Shown: positions 4,001 to 26,799 of the stretch, in pieces | How the letters are laid out: the number at the start of each line of letters is the position of its first letter | Numbering within the stretch: the stretch's first letter is position 1 | The notes under the pieces: model-generated | What the model was told of the DNA's origin: nothing | Database searches by the model: none | What the model saw: the letters and a program-made list of their open reading frames with translations, nothing else | Translations under genes and position numbers: made by a program | Assembly (NCBI RefSeq): GCF_036324365.1 | Contig: NZ_CP137080.1 | Span: forward strand, 868,001 to 932,000 | DNA from: Microbacterium limosum | GTDB taxonomy: Bacteria > Actinomycetota > Actinomycetes > Actinomycetales > Microbacteriaceae | DNA length: 64,000 bases | Direction of reading: 5' to 3'

Positions 4001-4470
4001 GCCGCCGCGAGCCGGTGGTAGCCCTCCTGACCGCGCGCGAGCACGAGCAGGTGCCGCCCGGCGGGGTCGGCCTCGCCGCCCTGCGGCTTCGGCAGCTCGA
4101 GCGAGAGCTCGGCCCCGAACACCGTCGTGACGTGGAACGACTCCGCCGCCTCGGCGAAGCGCGCGAGGCCGTAGAAGCCGTCGTGGTCGGTCAGGGCGAG
4201 GCCCGACAGCCCCAGGCGCTCGGCCTCCTCGATCAGCTGCTCGGGCGAGGACGCGCCGTCGAGGAACGAGTACGACGAGTGCGCGTGCAGCTCGGCGTAG
4301 GGCACCGCGGTCTCGGGTCGCCGGATGGGCGGGGTGACGTAGGCGCCCCGCTTGCGCGACCAGGCGGGGCTGTCGCCGCCGTCGGCGTGGGGCGGCGCGG
4401 CCTCGGGGCGCGTGGTGCTGAGGATGCGCTCGAGCTGCGACCACGGGATCGGCGGATTGCGGAATCCCAT
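1054..4470 (-). CDS. dnaE2: Error-prone DNA polymerase III alpha subunit DnaE2
   Basis: Catalytic subunit of the ImuA/ImuB/DnaE2 translesion mutasome, which copies past DNA lesions with low fidelity. The 1138-aa length fits DnaE2, shorter than replicative DnaE1. An N-terminal PHP domain begins with LHAHSSYSFLDG (about residues 61-72). The polymerase palm has PDIDVDFDSD near residue 452 and KFDLLGLGML near 593, together holding the three catalytic aspartates of C-family polymerases. A C-terminal OB-fold region (VEVAGLVTHRQRP) is present. The ATG at 4470 overlaps the imuB stop by one base (TGATG), so the two are translationally coupled. Expression should follow the LexA-like promoter upstream of imuA. 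The operon order imuA-imuB-dnaE2 makes the DnaE2 assignment, rather than DnaE1, secure. Confidence 0.96.
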   Translation of the reverse strand: MGFRNPPIPWSQLERILSTTRPEAAPPHADGGDSPAWSRKRGAYVTPPIRRPETAVPYAELHAHSSYSFLDGASSPEQLIEEAERLGLSGLALTDHDGFYGLARFAEAAESFHVTTVFGAELSLELPKPQGGEADPAGRHLLVLARGQEGYHRLAAAITAAQLRGGEKGRPVYDLGELADRAGGSRDPHWAILTGCRKGAVRRALQEEGPDAAARELDHLVDLFGRASVFVELTDHGDPLDSRRNDLLAALAADRGLPTLATNNVHYATPDKARLASAIAAVRATRSMDDLDGWLPAHGSGHLRSGAEMADRFARYPGAVPRTATLAEELGFPLRKAKPALPKQEVPDGHTPMSWLRHLVWQAVPEKYPRLAEEDRRRIENELAVIEKKDFPGYFLIVHDIVAEARRRGILCQGRGSAANSAVCYLLHITAVDPILYRLPFERFLSSLREEEPDIDVDFDSDRREEIIQWVYARYGRERSAQVANVIQYRPKNAVRDMARALGFSPGQQDAWSKQVERWGAELSSMPDHDIPEQVVEYAGELLKAPRHLGIHSGGMVLTDRPVGEVVPIEHARMENRTVIQWDKDDAAWMGLVKFDLLGLGMLAALQHCFDLIRDATGEEWTLATLPKEEPAVYDMLCRADSIGVFQVESRAQMGLLPRLQPRRFYDLVVEIALIRPGPIQGRAVHPFVRRKMGLEEVVYPHPKLKPVLERTLGIPVFQEQLMQIAMAVGECTGEQADLLRRAMGSKRGQEKIESLREHLYAGMARNGLVGAAADDIYAKIQAFADFGFAESHSLSFALLVYASSWIKLHYPAAFLAGLLRAQPMGFYSAATLAADARRHGVEVRRPDLHLSAATETLEPLVPRAERTATPTGTDECLHTPQPPGGEFDRAAPDASASHRRDGGFAVRLGLAGVTGIGAKVAERIVAERDAAGPFRDMHELVRRTDLTAAQLESLATAGAFECLGLTRREAIWQAGSAAQDRAQFLPGTVFAVQPPLFPDLSNHDRLAADLWATGVSPDDHPMTHYREHLAARGVLPSAALRTHETGRRVEVAGLVTHRQRPATASGITFLNLEDEHGLVNVICSVGVWTRYRRIVRDSPALIARGMLERSQEGVTNLVADGFEDLRVGMRHASRDFR

Positions 4471-6068
4471 CAGTCGTACCTCCCCTCGGCGTGCCAGGCC
4501 TCGTCCTCGTACACCAGCAGCCAGGCCTCCTGCCGGTCATCGACCGCCTGCACGCGGTAGGCGAGGCGCCGCCGCTGCGGATCCCAGTCGCGCTCGCGCA
4601 GCGCCCACGGGCCGGCCCAGGCCGCGACATCCCGTCGCCTCCCCTCGCGCCCGAGCGAGGCGGGCGGGGCGCTCATCCGGCCGCGCGCGTCGATCGTGAC
4701 GGGGGCGCCCTCGGCGTCGAGCACCACGATCGGCGGCAGCGCCGCGTACACCGTGGTGGGGTGCGGGGCGGGCAGCGACCCGGGCCAAGGCTGCCCGCGA
4801 TCGGCGGCCGTCGTGACCCGGTCGCCCCAGGGCACCAGCACCTGCCGCTCGGCGGGGGAGCGACCGCCCCCGATCGCGGGGGTGAGCACGCCCCGATGCC
4901 CGAGCATCGCCTGCACCCGCGAGAGGGCGTGGTGCACGCGCTCGCCGGGGCCCTGGCCGAACAGGCCCGGCTCGTGGTGGGCGGCCTCGTCGACGGACTC
5001 GGGGGCCAGGCGCACCTGCGACACGCCGCTGGTCAGCTCGCCGCCGATCGCCGCCTCGAGCTGCCAGCGCACGCGGTCGACCACCGCCGCGGCATCGAAC
5101 GTGGTGGGGTGCAGCCACACCCGCTCCGACCTCCCGCCCCGGTCGTCGAGCAGCTCGACGCGCAGCTCGGTGCACACCAGGGCGCGCTCGGAGAGGGCCG
5201 AGATGAACGCATCGGCGGTGACGCGCACCGCGAACCCGATCTGGTCGACCAGCTCGAGCGGAGGCTCGAACGACACCTCCCGCTCCAGCTCGGGCGGGGG
5301 CGTGCGGGCCGTGACGGTGCGGGCATCGAGCCCCCGCGCGAGGCGGTGCAGGCGGATGCCGCGGTCGGCGAACCGCTCGCGCACCTTCTCCTCGTCGAGC
5401 TCCGCGAAGGCACCGAGCGTCTGCACCCCCAGGCGGGCGAGCAGACCGATGATCTCGTCGTCGGCGAGGGCGCGCACTGACAGCGGCGCGAGGAACGCGC
5501 CCGCCTCCCCGGGCGGCACGATGCGGACGGGCGCGTCGGGGCTCGTCAGCCGCGCCGCCTGCTCTGCCGTGAAGGGGCCGTCGCCGATGCCGACGCGGGT
5601 CTCGGGCAGGCCCGCGCGGGCGAGGTCGCCCTGCAGCACGCGCGCCGCGGCATCCTCGCCGCCGTAATACCGCGCCGGCCCCCGGGCGCGCAGGGCCCCG
5701 AGCCCCGCCCGCACGATCTGCACCCCGGGGGCGTGCTGCTCGATGCGGGAGACCACCGGCAGGAAGCCCCGGTTGTCTCGGGCCTCGTCGTCGGGGACGA
5801 GGTGCAGGCCCGGGCAGGCCGCCTGCGCGTCGCGGCGCCGCTGACCCCGGCGCACCCCCTGCGCCCGCGCCCGCTCCGAGCACGCGACGATGCGGTTGCC
5901 CCGCACCACCGCGATGGGCGCCGCCTCGTCGAGCGTCGATCCACGCTCCCGCAGCAGGGCGTGCACGGGCCAGTCGGGCACCCACACCACGAGCGTGCGC
6001 ACGGGGGTGGTGGATGCCGGGGGCGACGGCGTGCCGTCGGCGACGCGCGCAGGAGTCACGGCGCTCAC
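4470..6068 (-). CDS. imuB: ImuB, inactive Y-family polymerase homologue
   Basis: Adapter of the DnaE2 mutasome. In the family, ImuB binds the beta clamp and recruits ImuA and DnaE2 but does not itself polymerise. This 532-aa protein aligns with the Y-family palm and little-finger regions: VVWVPDWPVHALL near residue 27, then a helix-hairpin-helix-like stretch (LLARLGVQTLGAFAEL). The canonical SxDE catalytic motif is replaced by a stretch around LGALRARGPARYYGGE, so the acidic residues are missing, as expected for ImuB. The C-terminal half is specific to ImuB and ends in ARG-rich sequence with WLLVYEDEAWHAEGRYD. GTG start at 6068 overlaps the imuA stop by four bases (GTGA). A slightly later start (for example at VRTLVV) is possible because the first 25 residues look unconserved. 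Confidence 0.93.
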   Translation of the reverse strand: MSAVTPARVADGTPSPPASTTPVRTLVVWVPDWPVHALLRERGSTLDEAAPIAVVRGNRIVACSERARAQGVRRGQRRRDAQAACPGLHLVPDDEARDNRGFLPVVSRIEQHAPGVQIVRAGLGALRARGPARYYGGEDAAARVLQGDLARAGLPETRVGIGDGPFTAEQAARLTSPDAPVRIVPPGEAGAFLAPLSVRALADDEIIGLLARLGVQTLGAFAELDEEKVRERFADRGIRLHRLARGLDARTVTARTPPPELEREVSFEPPLELVDQIGFAVRVTADAFISALSERALVCTELRVELLDDRGGRSERVWLHPTTFDAAAVVDRVRWQLEAAIGGELTSGVSQVRLAPESVDEAAHHEPGLFGQGPGERVHHALSRVQAMLGHRGVLTPAIGGGRSPAERQVLVPWGDRVTTAADRGQPWPGSLPAPHPTTVYAALPPIVVLDAEGAPVTIDARGRMSAPPASLGREGRRRDVAAWAGPWALRERDWDPQRRRLAYRVQAVDDRQEAWLLVYEDEAWHAEGRYD

Positions 6069-6842: not shown

Positions 6843-6862
6843 ATAGTAGAATGTAGGTTCGA
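6843..6862 (-). promoter_or_regulatory. LexA-like SOS box with -10 element for imuA operon
   Basis: On the minus strand the 16-mer at 6862-6847 matches 10 of the 12 defined positions of the actinobacterial SOS box TCGAACNNNNGTTCGA. TACTAT (6848-6843) overlaps its end and lies seven bases before the ATG at 6835, so LexA bound here would cover the core promoter. The box match is seen directly; LexA control is inferred from the known regulation of imuA/imuB/dnaE2. Confidence 0.7.
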
Positions 6863-7114
6863 CATTCACCATGGCAATGATGGGTGAACCTTCGATGTTC
6901 ACTCGAAGCTTCGGGGCGTTTCCCGCGGATATTCGGCCGACCGGGGCATCCGTTCCGTGCCCTCCGGCGGGGTCGCGGGGTGCGCCTCATGTTCCGGACC
7001 CCTCGCGGGTCTCATTCTCATCTTCTGTCCACCGACTCCGGGTGAAGTGCAGACAAGAAATATCTCCTGACCAGGCATCCATGCGCCGTTATTATTTCGT
7101 TACATGAGCCGGAG

Positions 7115-7144
7115 TTGACATGAAGATGAGAGGCGTCTCATGAT
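7115..7144 (+). promoter_or_regulatory. Pilus locus 1 promoter with embedded palindromic operator
   Basis: TTGACA (7115-7120) and CATGAT (7139-7144) are 18 bp apart and form a plausible sigma-70-type promoter about 140 bases ahead of the pilin ATG. The spacer holds the perfect palindrome ATGAGA-N4-TCTCAT at 7126-7141. The same -35, nine-base AAGATGAGA word and -10 position recur upstream of pilus locus 2 (16258-16287). The regulator is unknown. Confidence 0.65.
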
Positions 7145-16055: not shown

Positions 16056-16095
16056 AAGATGAGAACCGTCTGGCAACAGATGAGAGCTATCTCAT
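16056..16095 (+). promoter_or_regulatory. Pair of ATGAGA-type operator sites upstream of locus 2
   Basis: ATGAGA-N4-TCTGGC (16059-16074, right arm half matched) and a perfect ATGAGA-N4-TCTCAT (16080-16095) are spaced exactly 21 bp, two helical turns. The element matches the palindrome in the locus 1 promoter and the degenerate copy in the locus 2 promoter. Confidence 0.65.
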
Positions 16096-16257: not shown

Positions 16258-16287
16258 TTGACTCAAAGATGAGAAGTCCCTAATGAT
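16258..16287 (+). promoter_or_regulatory. Pilus locus 2 promoter with degenerate operator
   Basis: TTGACT (16258-16263) and TAATGA (16281-16286) are 17 bp apart. The spacer contains AAGATGAGA (16266-16274) and an imperfect right arm CCTAAT, aligned base for base with the locus 1 promoter. Transcription would start about 120 bases before the pilin ATG. Confidence 0.65.
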
Positions 16288-25107: not shown

Positions 25108-26799
25108 TCACGCCGCGACGCGCAGCACCTCTTCGATCGTCGTCAGCCCTTGCGACACCTTGACCCAGCCGTCCTCGCGCAGCGAGGTCATCCCCTGCGC
25201 GAGCGCGGTCTGGCGGATCTCGGTGCCGGTCGCGCGCGTCACGACGAGCTGCTCGATCTCCTCGGTGAGCGTCATCACCTCGTGCAGCGCGATCCGGCCG
25301 CGGTAGCCCGTGCCCGAGCACGCGGGGCACCCGACCGCGCGGAACAGCTGCGGCGGGTCGGCGGGGTCGTGCGGGAACCCCAGCGCCGAGAGCACGCCGG
25401 TGGGTTCGGTGACGGGCCCGCGGCAGCGCACGCACAGCCGCCGCGCGAGGCGCTGGGCGACGACCGCGGTGAGCGCCGTCGCGACGAGGAACGGCTCGCA
25501 GCCGATCTCGATCAGCCGCGTCAGGGCGCTGGGGGCGTCGTTGGTGTGCAGCGTCGAGAGCACGAGGTGGCCGGTCAGCGAGGCCTCGATCGAGATGACG
25601 GCGGTCTCGTGGTCGCGGATCTCGCCGACGAGCACGACGTCGGGATCGCTGCGCAGGATCGACCGCAGCGCCGCATCGAACGTCAGGCCCGCCCGGTTGT
25701 TGACCTGCACCTGATTGATGCCGGCGATCCGGTACTCCACGGGGTCTTCGACGGTGATGACGTTGACCTTGGGGTTCGCGACGTCCCGCAGCGCCGTGTA
25801 GAGGGTCGTCGACTTGCCCGACCCGGTCGGCCCCGTCACGAGCACCATGCCGTGGGGGCGATGGATCGCCTCCGCGAAGCGCTCGAGGTTCGCGGGCGAC
25901 ATCTGCAGATCGCTCATCGCCATGCTCTGCCCCGAGGTGTCGAGGATGCGCATGACGATCTTCTCGCCCCACACGGTCGGCAGCGTCGCCACGCGCAGGT
26001 CGATCTGGCGTCCCTCGTGCTGAACCGAGAGCCGGCCGTCCTGCGGGCGGCGCCGCTCGGCGATGTCGATCGACGACATGATCTTCAGCCGCGAGATGAT
26101 GCCGTCCTGGATGCCGCGGTCGGCGCGCTGCATCTCGTGCAGCACGCCGTCGATGCGGAACCGGACGGTCAGCTCGTGCTCACCCGGCTCGACGTGGATG
26201 TCGCTCGCGCGGTCGTTGATGGCCTGCGCGATCAGCAGGTTCACGAACCGGACGATGGGCGCGTCGGCGTCCTGCTCGTCGAGCGACTCGGTGAAGACCG
26301 CGCCCGGCGTGGTTCCGGTCTCGCCGATCTGCTCCGACAGGTCGCTGAGCTCCTCATCGGAGCGGAGGTAGCGCTCGAAGGCCTGCTGCAGGGCGTCGGC
26401 GGCCACGACCACGGGCTCCACCCGCATATCGGTGAGGCTCGTCACGTCGTCGAGGGCGATGATGTCGGTGGGATCGAGCATCGCGAGGGTGAGGCGTTCG
26501 CCGACACGCTCGATGGGGATCACGCGGTAGCGGCGGCAGAGCGCGCCCGGCACGAGCGAGACGATCGACTGGTCGAGCACGGCGTTCGAGAGGTCGACCA
26601 GCCGGTTCCCGGTGTGCAGCGCCACCGCCTCTGCCAGCTGCAGCTCGGTCACGACCCGTGAATCGACGAGGTGACGCTCGAGTTCGGGCGTCTCGCCGAA
26701 CCGGGCGAGCACGGCCGACATGTCGGCGGCGCGCACCGCCCCCGTCAGCACGAGCGTCTGAGCGATTCCGCGCACGAGCCCTCCCTCTCCCGCGGTCAT
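25108..26799 (-). CDS. pilB: Type IV pilus extension ATPase PilB (GspE family)
   Basis: The only extension ATPase in the window, 563 aa. It has the N-terminal MshE/GspE-N domain (about 1-150), the N2 domain SDIHVEPGEHELTVRFRIDG (about 195-215), Walker A GPTGSGKSTTL (about 322-332), Asp box ITVEDPVEY, Walker B DPDVVLVGEIRD, His box STLHTNDAPSAL and the zinc tetracysteine CVRC...CPAC near the C-terminus, which separates PilB from PilT. It lies on the opposite strand, convergent with locus 2. Since neither locus has its own pilB, this enzyme probably powers assembly of both pili. The start codon is GTG at 26799 or a nearby alternative. Confidence 0.95.
   Translation of the reverse strand: MTAGEGGLVRGIAQTLVLTGAVRAADMSAVLARFGETPELERHLVDSRVVTELQLAEAVALHTGNRLVDLSNAVLDQSIVSLVPGALCRRYRVIPIERVGERLTLAMLDPTDIIALDDVTSLTDMRVEPVVVAADALQQAFERYLRSDEELSDLSEQIGETGTTPGAVFTESLDEQDADAPIVRFVNLLIAQAINDRASDIHVEPGEHELTVRFRIDGVLHEMQRADRGIQDGIISRLKIMSSIDIAERRRPQDGRLSVQHEGRQIDLRVATLPTVWGEKIVMRILDTSGQSMAMSDLQMSPANLERFAEAIHRPHGMVLVTGPTGSGKSTTLYTALRDVANPKVNVITVEDPVEYRIAGINQVQVNNRAGLTFDAALRSILRSDPDVVLVGEIRDHETAVISIEASLTGHLVLSTLHTNDAPSALTRLIEIGCEPFLVATALTAVVAQRLARRLCVRCRGPVTEPTGVLSALGFPHDPADPPQLFRAVGCPACSGTGYRGRIALHEVMTLTEEIEQLVVTRATGTEIRQTALAQGMTSLREDGWVKVSQGLTTIEEVLRVAA

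Follow-up and report, generated by a model that had tools for sequence, protein, structure and literature searches.

A recurrent ATGAGA-N4-TCTCAT palindrome in type IV pilus promoters of Microbacterium and its candidate OmpR-family regulator

Regulators of the DegU/ComA type, whose DNA-binding fold is the LuxR-type helix-turn-helix (LuxR-HTH), control exoenzymes and motility in Bacillus. In Escherichia coli, CusR, the OmpR-family regulator of the CusRS system, binds AAAATGACAAnnTTGTCATTTT, which contains ATGACA-N4-TGTCAT, according to the part of the source drawn on here (PMC11195947). Streptomyces CutR is described, likewise in an excerpt of its source, as repressing from a site at -17 and activating from sites at -62 and -69 (PMC12802291). 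For Microbacterium, the literature covered here (mainly listings and abstracts, with most subscription journals outside its scope) names no regulator of type IV pili, and the motif that we report does not appear in it.

We analysed a window of 64,000 nucleotides from Microbacterium limosum, in which a tandem pair of similar type IV pilus gene sets, each with a pilin, a prepilin peptidase, PilM and an ATPase, occupies 7.2-26.8 kb. Pfam matches identified locus 1 as a type IV pilus operon, with a prepilin (PF07963), a prepilin peptidase (PF06750/PF01478) and PilM (PF11104), and it also encodes an ATPase (PF00437) and a platform protein (PF00482). A PilB homologue lies on the minus strand at 25795-26652, and the window scan found no copy of the palindrome described below near this gene at up to two mismatches. 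To the left of the pilus locus, an impB/mucB/samB ORF (Y-family polymerase, IMS; 4470-6068, minus strand) has neighbours that by eye resemble an ImuA-DnaE2 mutasome cassette, the ORFs scanned there giving no Pfam match, and TTCAC/GTGAA inverted repeats near 6855-6905 may, again by eye, be an SOS operator.

Re-reading the sequence upstream of pilin 1 (prepilin, N_methyl, Pfam PF07963; 7288-7662, plus strand) confirmed the elements and coordinates of the preliminary description: a -35 element TTGACA (7115-7120, plus strand), whose TTG is kept in related site-bearing pilin promoters; a -10 element CATGAT, assigned by consensus match (7139-7144, plus strand); and, between them, the palindrome ATGAGA-GGCG-TCTCAT (ATGAGAGGCGTCTCAT; 7126-7141, no strand assigned), our proposed operator. 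Previously described as a perfect 16-bp palindrome, it is perfect in its two 6-bp arms but not in its centre, GGCG, which is not self-complementary. The site occupies most of the 18-bp spacer between the two hexamers, plus the edge of the -10 element, with its end supplying the first three bases of CATGAT. The -35 element is near consensus, and the -10 element is, by eye, weak, with four of six consensus bases. About 110 bp upstream of the proposed operator there are two tandem half-sites, TCTCATTCTCAT (ATGAGAATGAGA on the minus strand; 7010-7021).

The promoter of pilin 2 (prepilin, N_methyl, Pfam PF07963; 16414-16845, plus strand) contains, as previously claimed, TTGACT (16258-16263, plus strand), which we take as the -35 element, AAGATGAGA (16266-16274) and TAATGA (16281-16286). 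The hexamer in the register of CATGAT is, however, AATGAT (16282-16287, plus strand), assigned as the -10 element by consensus match, and not TAATGA. At both pilin loci ATGAGA starts 11 bases after the start of the -35 element, and the locus 2 copy, ATGAGA-AGTC-CCTAAT (16269-16284, no strand assigned), which keeps the register of locus 1, has two mismatches, both in the second arm (CCTAAT). The view that a block is shared amid differing flanks also held, since both pilin copies keep ATGAGA and their flanks have diverged. Overlooked until now, together with the half-sites of pilin 1, were two further copies upstream of pilin 2, neither with an assigned strand: a second perfect one, ATGAGA-GCTA-TCTCAT, about 190 bp upstream of the promoter copy (16080-16095), and a degenerate one with three mismatches (16059-16074).

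Within the window, the palindrome has four matches at up to two mismatches, compared with 0.63 on average over 100 shuffles, all of which stayed below four. The 2.79-Mb genome contains four perfect sites and 35 sites at up to two mismatches, versus zero and five, respectively, for the reversed-pattern control; the frequency of the palindrome is not due to chance. Two of the perfect sites are those of the pilus loci. A third, where an aminotransferase gene ends, precedes a gene for a LuxR-HTH regulator; the fourth is about 470 bp before a bPH-domain gene, in a stretch that appears intergenic. At least two of the six one-mismatch copies are apparently inside genes, one within an aldose epimerase ORF (L005) and the other (L006) within a gene called by base composition only; such calls are rough, and were used in selecting proteins for Pfam and in describing gene neighbourhoods. 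In three loci (L132, with 14-base arms, L165 and L017) a longer inverted repeat has the palindrome as its core, suggesting that some copies may be terminators instead of operators. The preliminary description had held that a motif frequent at random positions in the genome would speak against an operator; this objection is answered in part only, because the motif extends beyond the pilus loci and some copies appear to lie in coding sequence or in longer intergenic hairpins.

To compare pilin promoters within the genus, we searched 119 Microbacterium genomes with the pilin 2 protein, obtaining a match in 40, and retained the 30 best loci, one per genome and that of the window included, as a set chosen blind to the motif. 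Half of them (15/30) had a copy at up to two mismatches within 700 bp upstream of the pilin, 14 had none and one was unparsed. All 15 site-bearing loci had TTG 10-12 bases before ATGAGA, ten of them had TTGAC with 5-7 bases to ATGAGA, and the second arm merged into a -10-like sequence. ATGAGA was also the commonest arm among perfect palindromes in the pilin-anchored loci (6/29; runner-up, two).

The composite TTGAC-N6-ATGAGA-N4-TCTMATG produced 29 matches in 29 of 366 genus genomes, with none for its reversed control, and every one of the 29 is upstream of type IV pilus genes. A prepilin ORF follows within 1.5 kb in 21 cases and a PilB homologue in seven, one of which is L109 itself, the source of the PilB query (PilB by Pfam MshEN and T2SSE); the last locus, L298, matches the pilus genes of the window, including PilM, by tblastx and blastn. 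L285 and L298 retain the composite promoter and a pilin-like leader, followed by further pilus genes, although no intact first pilin ORF was found there. A looser composite, with TTGNC, had three matches in 396 genomes of the order (18 in the genus), all three in the genus and none in the 378 sampled genomes outside it. Allowing up to three mismatches, the composite matched in 31 of the 40 pilin-bearing genomes (at least 47 matches; reversed control, four in total), but most of the matches with three mismatches are away from pilin matches by coordinates and we draw nothing from them. The motif and its register are tied to type IV pilus genes across the genus. A comparison of related pilin promoters had been proposed as a check on the idea of a shared regulator, and the 15 motif-blind loci and 29 composites argue strongly for it: the block keeps a fixed register in type IV pilus promoters of the genus, and a candidate reader can be named.

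Sites recur between phoH and a kinase-regulator gene pair, and a homologous pair is located within about 2 kb of a site in genomes of other families (G035, G039 and G042), suggesting that the reader is an OmpR-type regulator. In the genome of the window, this gene (G000:C1:1959693-1960346) is outside the window, beside phoH, and is paired with a membrane histidine kinase gene. Pfam matches are those of an OmpR-type pair, with a receiver (PF00072) and a winged-helix Trans_reg_C domain (PF00486) in the regulator, and HAMP (PF00672), HisKA (PF00512) and HATPase (PF02518) domains in the adjacent kinase. An RNA element at the phoH site was also considered and set aside, no Rfam match at the gathering threshold being found in six loci.

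The motif is enriched around genes for this regulator. Ten such regulators were aligned, and 80 loci were then fetched by protein sequence alone, none of them overlapping the loci where the motif was first met; identity and list position divided them into 51 nearer and 29 more distant loci, with partial matches of 63% (L251, L265) placed among the distant and one of 64% (L245) among the near. When all 4096 possible arms of 6-N4-6 palindromes were counted in the 51 nearer loci, ATGAGA ranked first, with a perfect site within about 4 kb in 19 loci (next arm, five). Outside Microbacterium, ATGAGA occurred in 17 of 44 regulator loci, as against no locus in each of 40 dinucleotide-shuffle rounds, and the bearers include Nocardioides, Arthrobacter, Isoptericola, Nonomuraea, Micromonospora and others, as well as two Cyanobacteria-labelled records (L215, a MAG, and L225, Nostoc). 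ATGAGA was not the top arm in the 29 more distant loci (3/29; top arm, five). Among control loci, the site was present in none of 29 LuxR-type loci (102 kb) and in two of 30 sigma-factor loci (112 kb), both sets being smaller than the regulator set (406 kb).

Of the five best-matching OmpR-type genes in the genome of the window (E <= 1e-40), only the phoH-side one has a site at up to two mismatches nearby, the nearest site being 925 bp away, versus 17.8-63 kb for the other four. Both site sets share a preference for R-NN-Y in the centre of the palindrome, the first arm being mostly followed by a purine and the second mostly preceded by a pyrimidine (52/58 and 33/38 positions). All 29 composite-bearing genomes encode the regulator, so that co-occurrence does not discriminate; a site lies within 1.5 kb of it in 12 of the 29 at up to one mismatch and in 14 at up to two, with zero for the reversed control. 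The reader of the palindrome is likely to be the OmpR-family response regulator encoded beside phoH. In four regulator loci that are from other families or paralogous (L227, L226, L195 and L218), the neighbours include small proteins rich in aspartate whose N-termini look signal-like by eye, a Ser/Thr kinase, and DUF4956 and VTC-domain proteins, which are possible hints at the signal.

Perfect sites are also found beside other genes. We counted 64 of them (reversed control, zero) in 21 genus genomes that were selected because they had a pilin match or ATGAGA-N4-TCTCATGAT, and whose motif counts are therefore no fair sample of the genus; 60 of the 64 were fetched, and Pfam was run on representatives only. 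Adjacent products included an alpha-amylase/pullulanase (L125), a subtilase (L154), a levansucrase (L161) and a solute-binding protein (L136). In amylase-type promoters from three genomes, assigned by Pfam in G011 (L125), by resemblance in G162 (L103) and by the promoter only in G176 (L120), 11 bp separate the end of the palindrome from a downstream TTGCAT -35 element, with a TANNNT -10 element 18 bp further. In L156 (by Pfam) and L158 (by sequence clustering) the site is flanked by divergently oriented flagellar genes, a FliA-like sigma factor among them, genomes G008 and G025 have perfect sites between flgN and the FliA-like sigma gene, and one-mismatch sites occur in the flagellar loci L319 (G114), L327 (G066, on the far side of the gene) and L331 (G011). 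General flagellar control was nevertheless rejected, as only G008 and G025 of 27 genomes with a FliA-like sigma factor had a perfect site in the fetched loci; with flagellar sites so sporadic, we do not claim it. In a genome of another family, three perfect copies fall within 1.8 kb (L198 5681-7435; G047:C14).

On balance, we consider it probable that the palindrome is the operator of the phoH-side OmpR-family regulator, a CusR/CopR-like protein without being a member of that group, which most likely occludes polymerase at the pilin promoter. The regulator would bind as a dimer, one subunit to each of the two ATGAGA half-sites. With the end of the -10 hexamer placed at -7 from the predicted transcription start, the pilus operator would be centred at about -17 and the amylase-type site at about -55, positions that suggest repression and activation, respectively; repression at the pilin promoter is plausible from the position of the site. 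There, the bound regulator would most likely block RNA polymerase and silence the pilus operon pending a change in the kinase signal, presumably under control of phosphorylation, and at exoenzyme promoters, with the site upstream of the -35 element, the same regulator would activate. Occlusion at the pilus and activation at the exoenzymes are favoured by the positional precedent of CutR, the -17 position being one of repression for CutR and the -55 position lying in the direction of its activating sites at -62 and -69. Because the motif of amylase-type promoters, 11 bp upstream of the -35, is in a place typical of activators, the phoH-side regulator probably does not serve as a repressor only. 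The palindrome may be a switch coupling pilus making to an outside signal.

It is unlikely, in our estimation, that the same regulator instead activates the pilin promoter, occupying the spacer and realigning the -35 and -10 elements in the manner of MerR. A dyad between these elements, a weak pilin -10 and a regulator apparently in activator position elsewhere, at the amylase-type promoters, would all agree with such a role. However, MerR promoters have spacers of 19-20 bp and the pilin spacer is within the ordinary range, so that the dyad is where a MerR-type site would be and the lengthened spacer is missing. OmpR-type regulators normally activate from upstream, and a near-consensus -35 element fits a promoter that needs to be kept silent.

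Occlusion by a bound regulator has also to be weighed against the conserved block being simply a core promoter inherited with the pilus operon, with the palindrome incidental, which we regard as very unlikely. The -35 and -10 elements are indeed conserved together with the palindrome, and the composite arrangement was found in one genus only among the sampled genomes of the order. Yet the palindrome occurs without this promoter, both in front of unrelated genes and, in other phyla, around the response regulator, and ATGAGA persists in the two pilin copies despite their diverged flanks.

The two copies at the LuxR-HTH regulator deserve separate mention. This 484-aa protein (G000:C1:2328350-2329801) has a perfect and a one-mismatch copy, 110 bp apart, immediately before its gene and within its own promoter region (L041 6211-7805; G000:C1:2328210-2329804), and 6-N4-6 sites are used by LuxR-type regulators such as ComA. 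We searched for its relatives in 119 genus genomes, scoring at most 13 candidates in each. Among the matches listed, relatives (long matches, E < 1e-15) were found in six genomes besides G000, at 26-35% identity, and G000 itself has a 37% paralogue; in the other composite-bearing genomes of this sample (G008, G025, G071, G105, G110, G117 and G120), the best match had an E value of 1e-8 or weaker. None of 29 other LuxR-type loci had a copy at up to one mismatch, and with no sites near its relatives we rejected this regulator as the reader, a role that is very improbable for it; it is probably better read as a (second-tier) target.

If the operator reading favoured here is true, it would supply a candidate regulator that can be named, a precisely defined operator, a promoter open to test and a first list of genes under common control. 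A widespread two-component family would also be matched to its site, by a general approach, the counting of all palindromes around homologues of one regulator. More speculatively, and with considerable doubt, a two-component system of Actinobacteria and, judging from an identical site next to homologous regulator genes, some Cyanobacteria could use a CusR-like box, ATGAGA-R-NN-Y-TCTCAT, and serve in Microbacterium as a position-coded surface-lifestyle switch that represses type IV pili from a site within the promoter and activates secreted hydrolases from an upstream one.

The CusR box, as given in the excerpted source, and the pilus palindrome are both of the 6-N4-6 form and are one base per half-site apart, ATGACA versus ATGAGA. 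The best of 99 NCBIfam models for the regulator is that of the CusR/CopR/CzcR subfamily (cztR_silR_copR, TIGR01387), yet its score, 213.5 bits, is under the cut-off of 279.2. The putative targets also differ from those of CusR, being pili and exoenzymes; the few neighbours scanned, in a non-systematic survey, included no metal genes. We do not file the regulator as CusR, since its score is below that cut-off and the half-site is not exactly that of CusR; by analogy, the palindrome would work like a CusR-type operator and is not that of CusR itself. CutRS of Streptomyces, an OmpR-family system responding to secretion stress, is likewise an actinobacterial two-component system whose sign depends on position, but we rejected CutR as the same system: in the portion of its source used here it reads TAWATAAA and not the ATGAGA palindrome (PMC12802291). 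Finally, the kinds of target seen here (amylase, subtilase and levansucrase and, in two genomes, flagellar genes) are similar to those under DegU/ComA control in Bacillus, although DegU and ComA differ from the phoH-side regulator in both DNA-binding fold and site.
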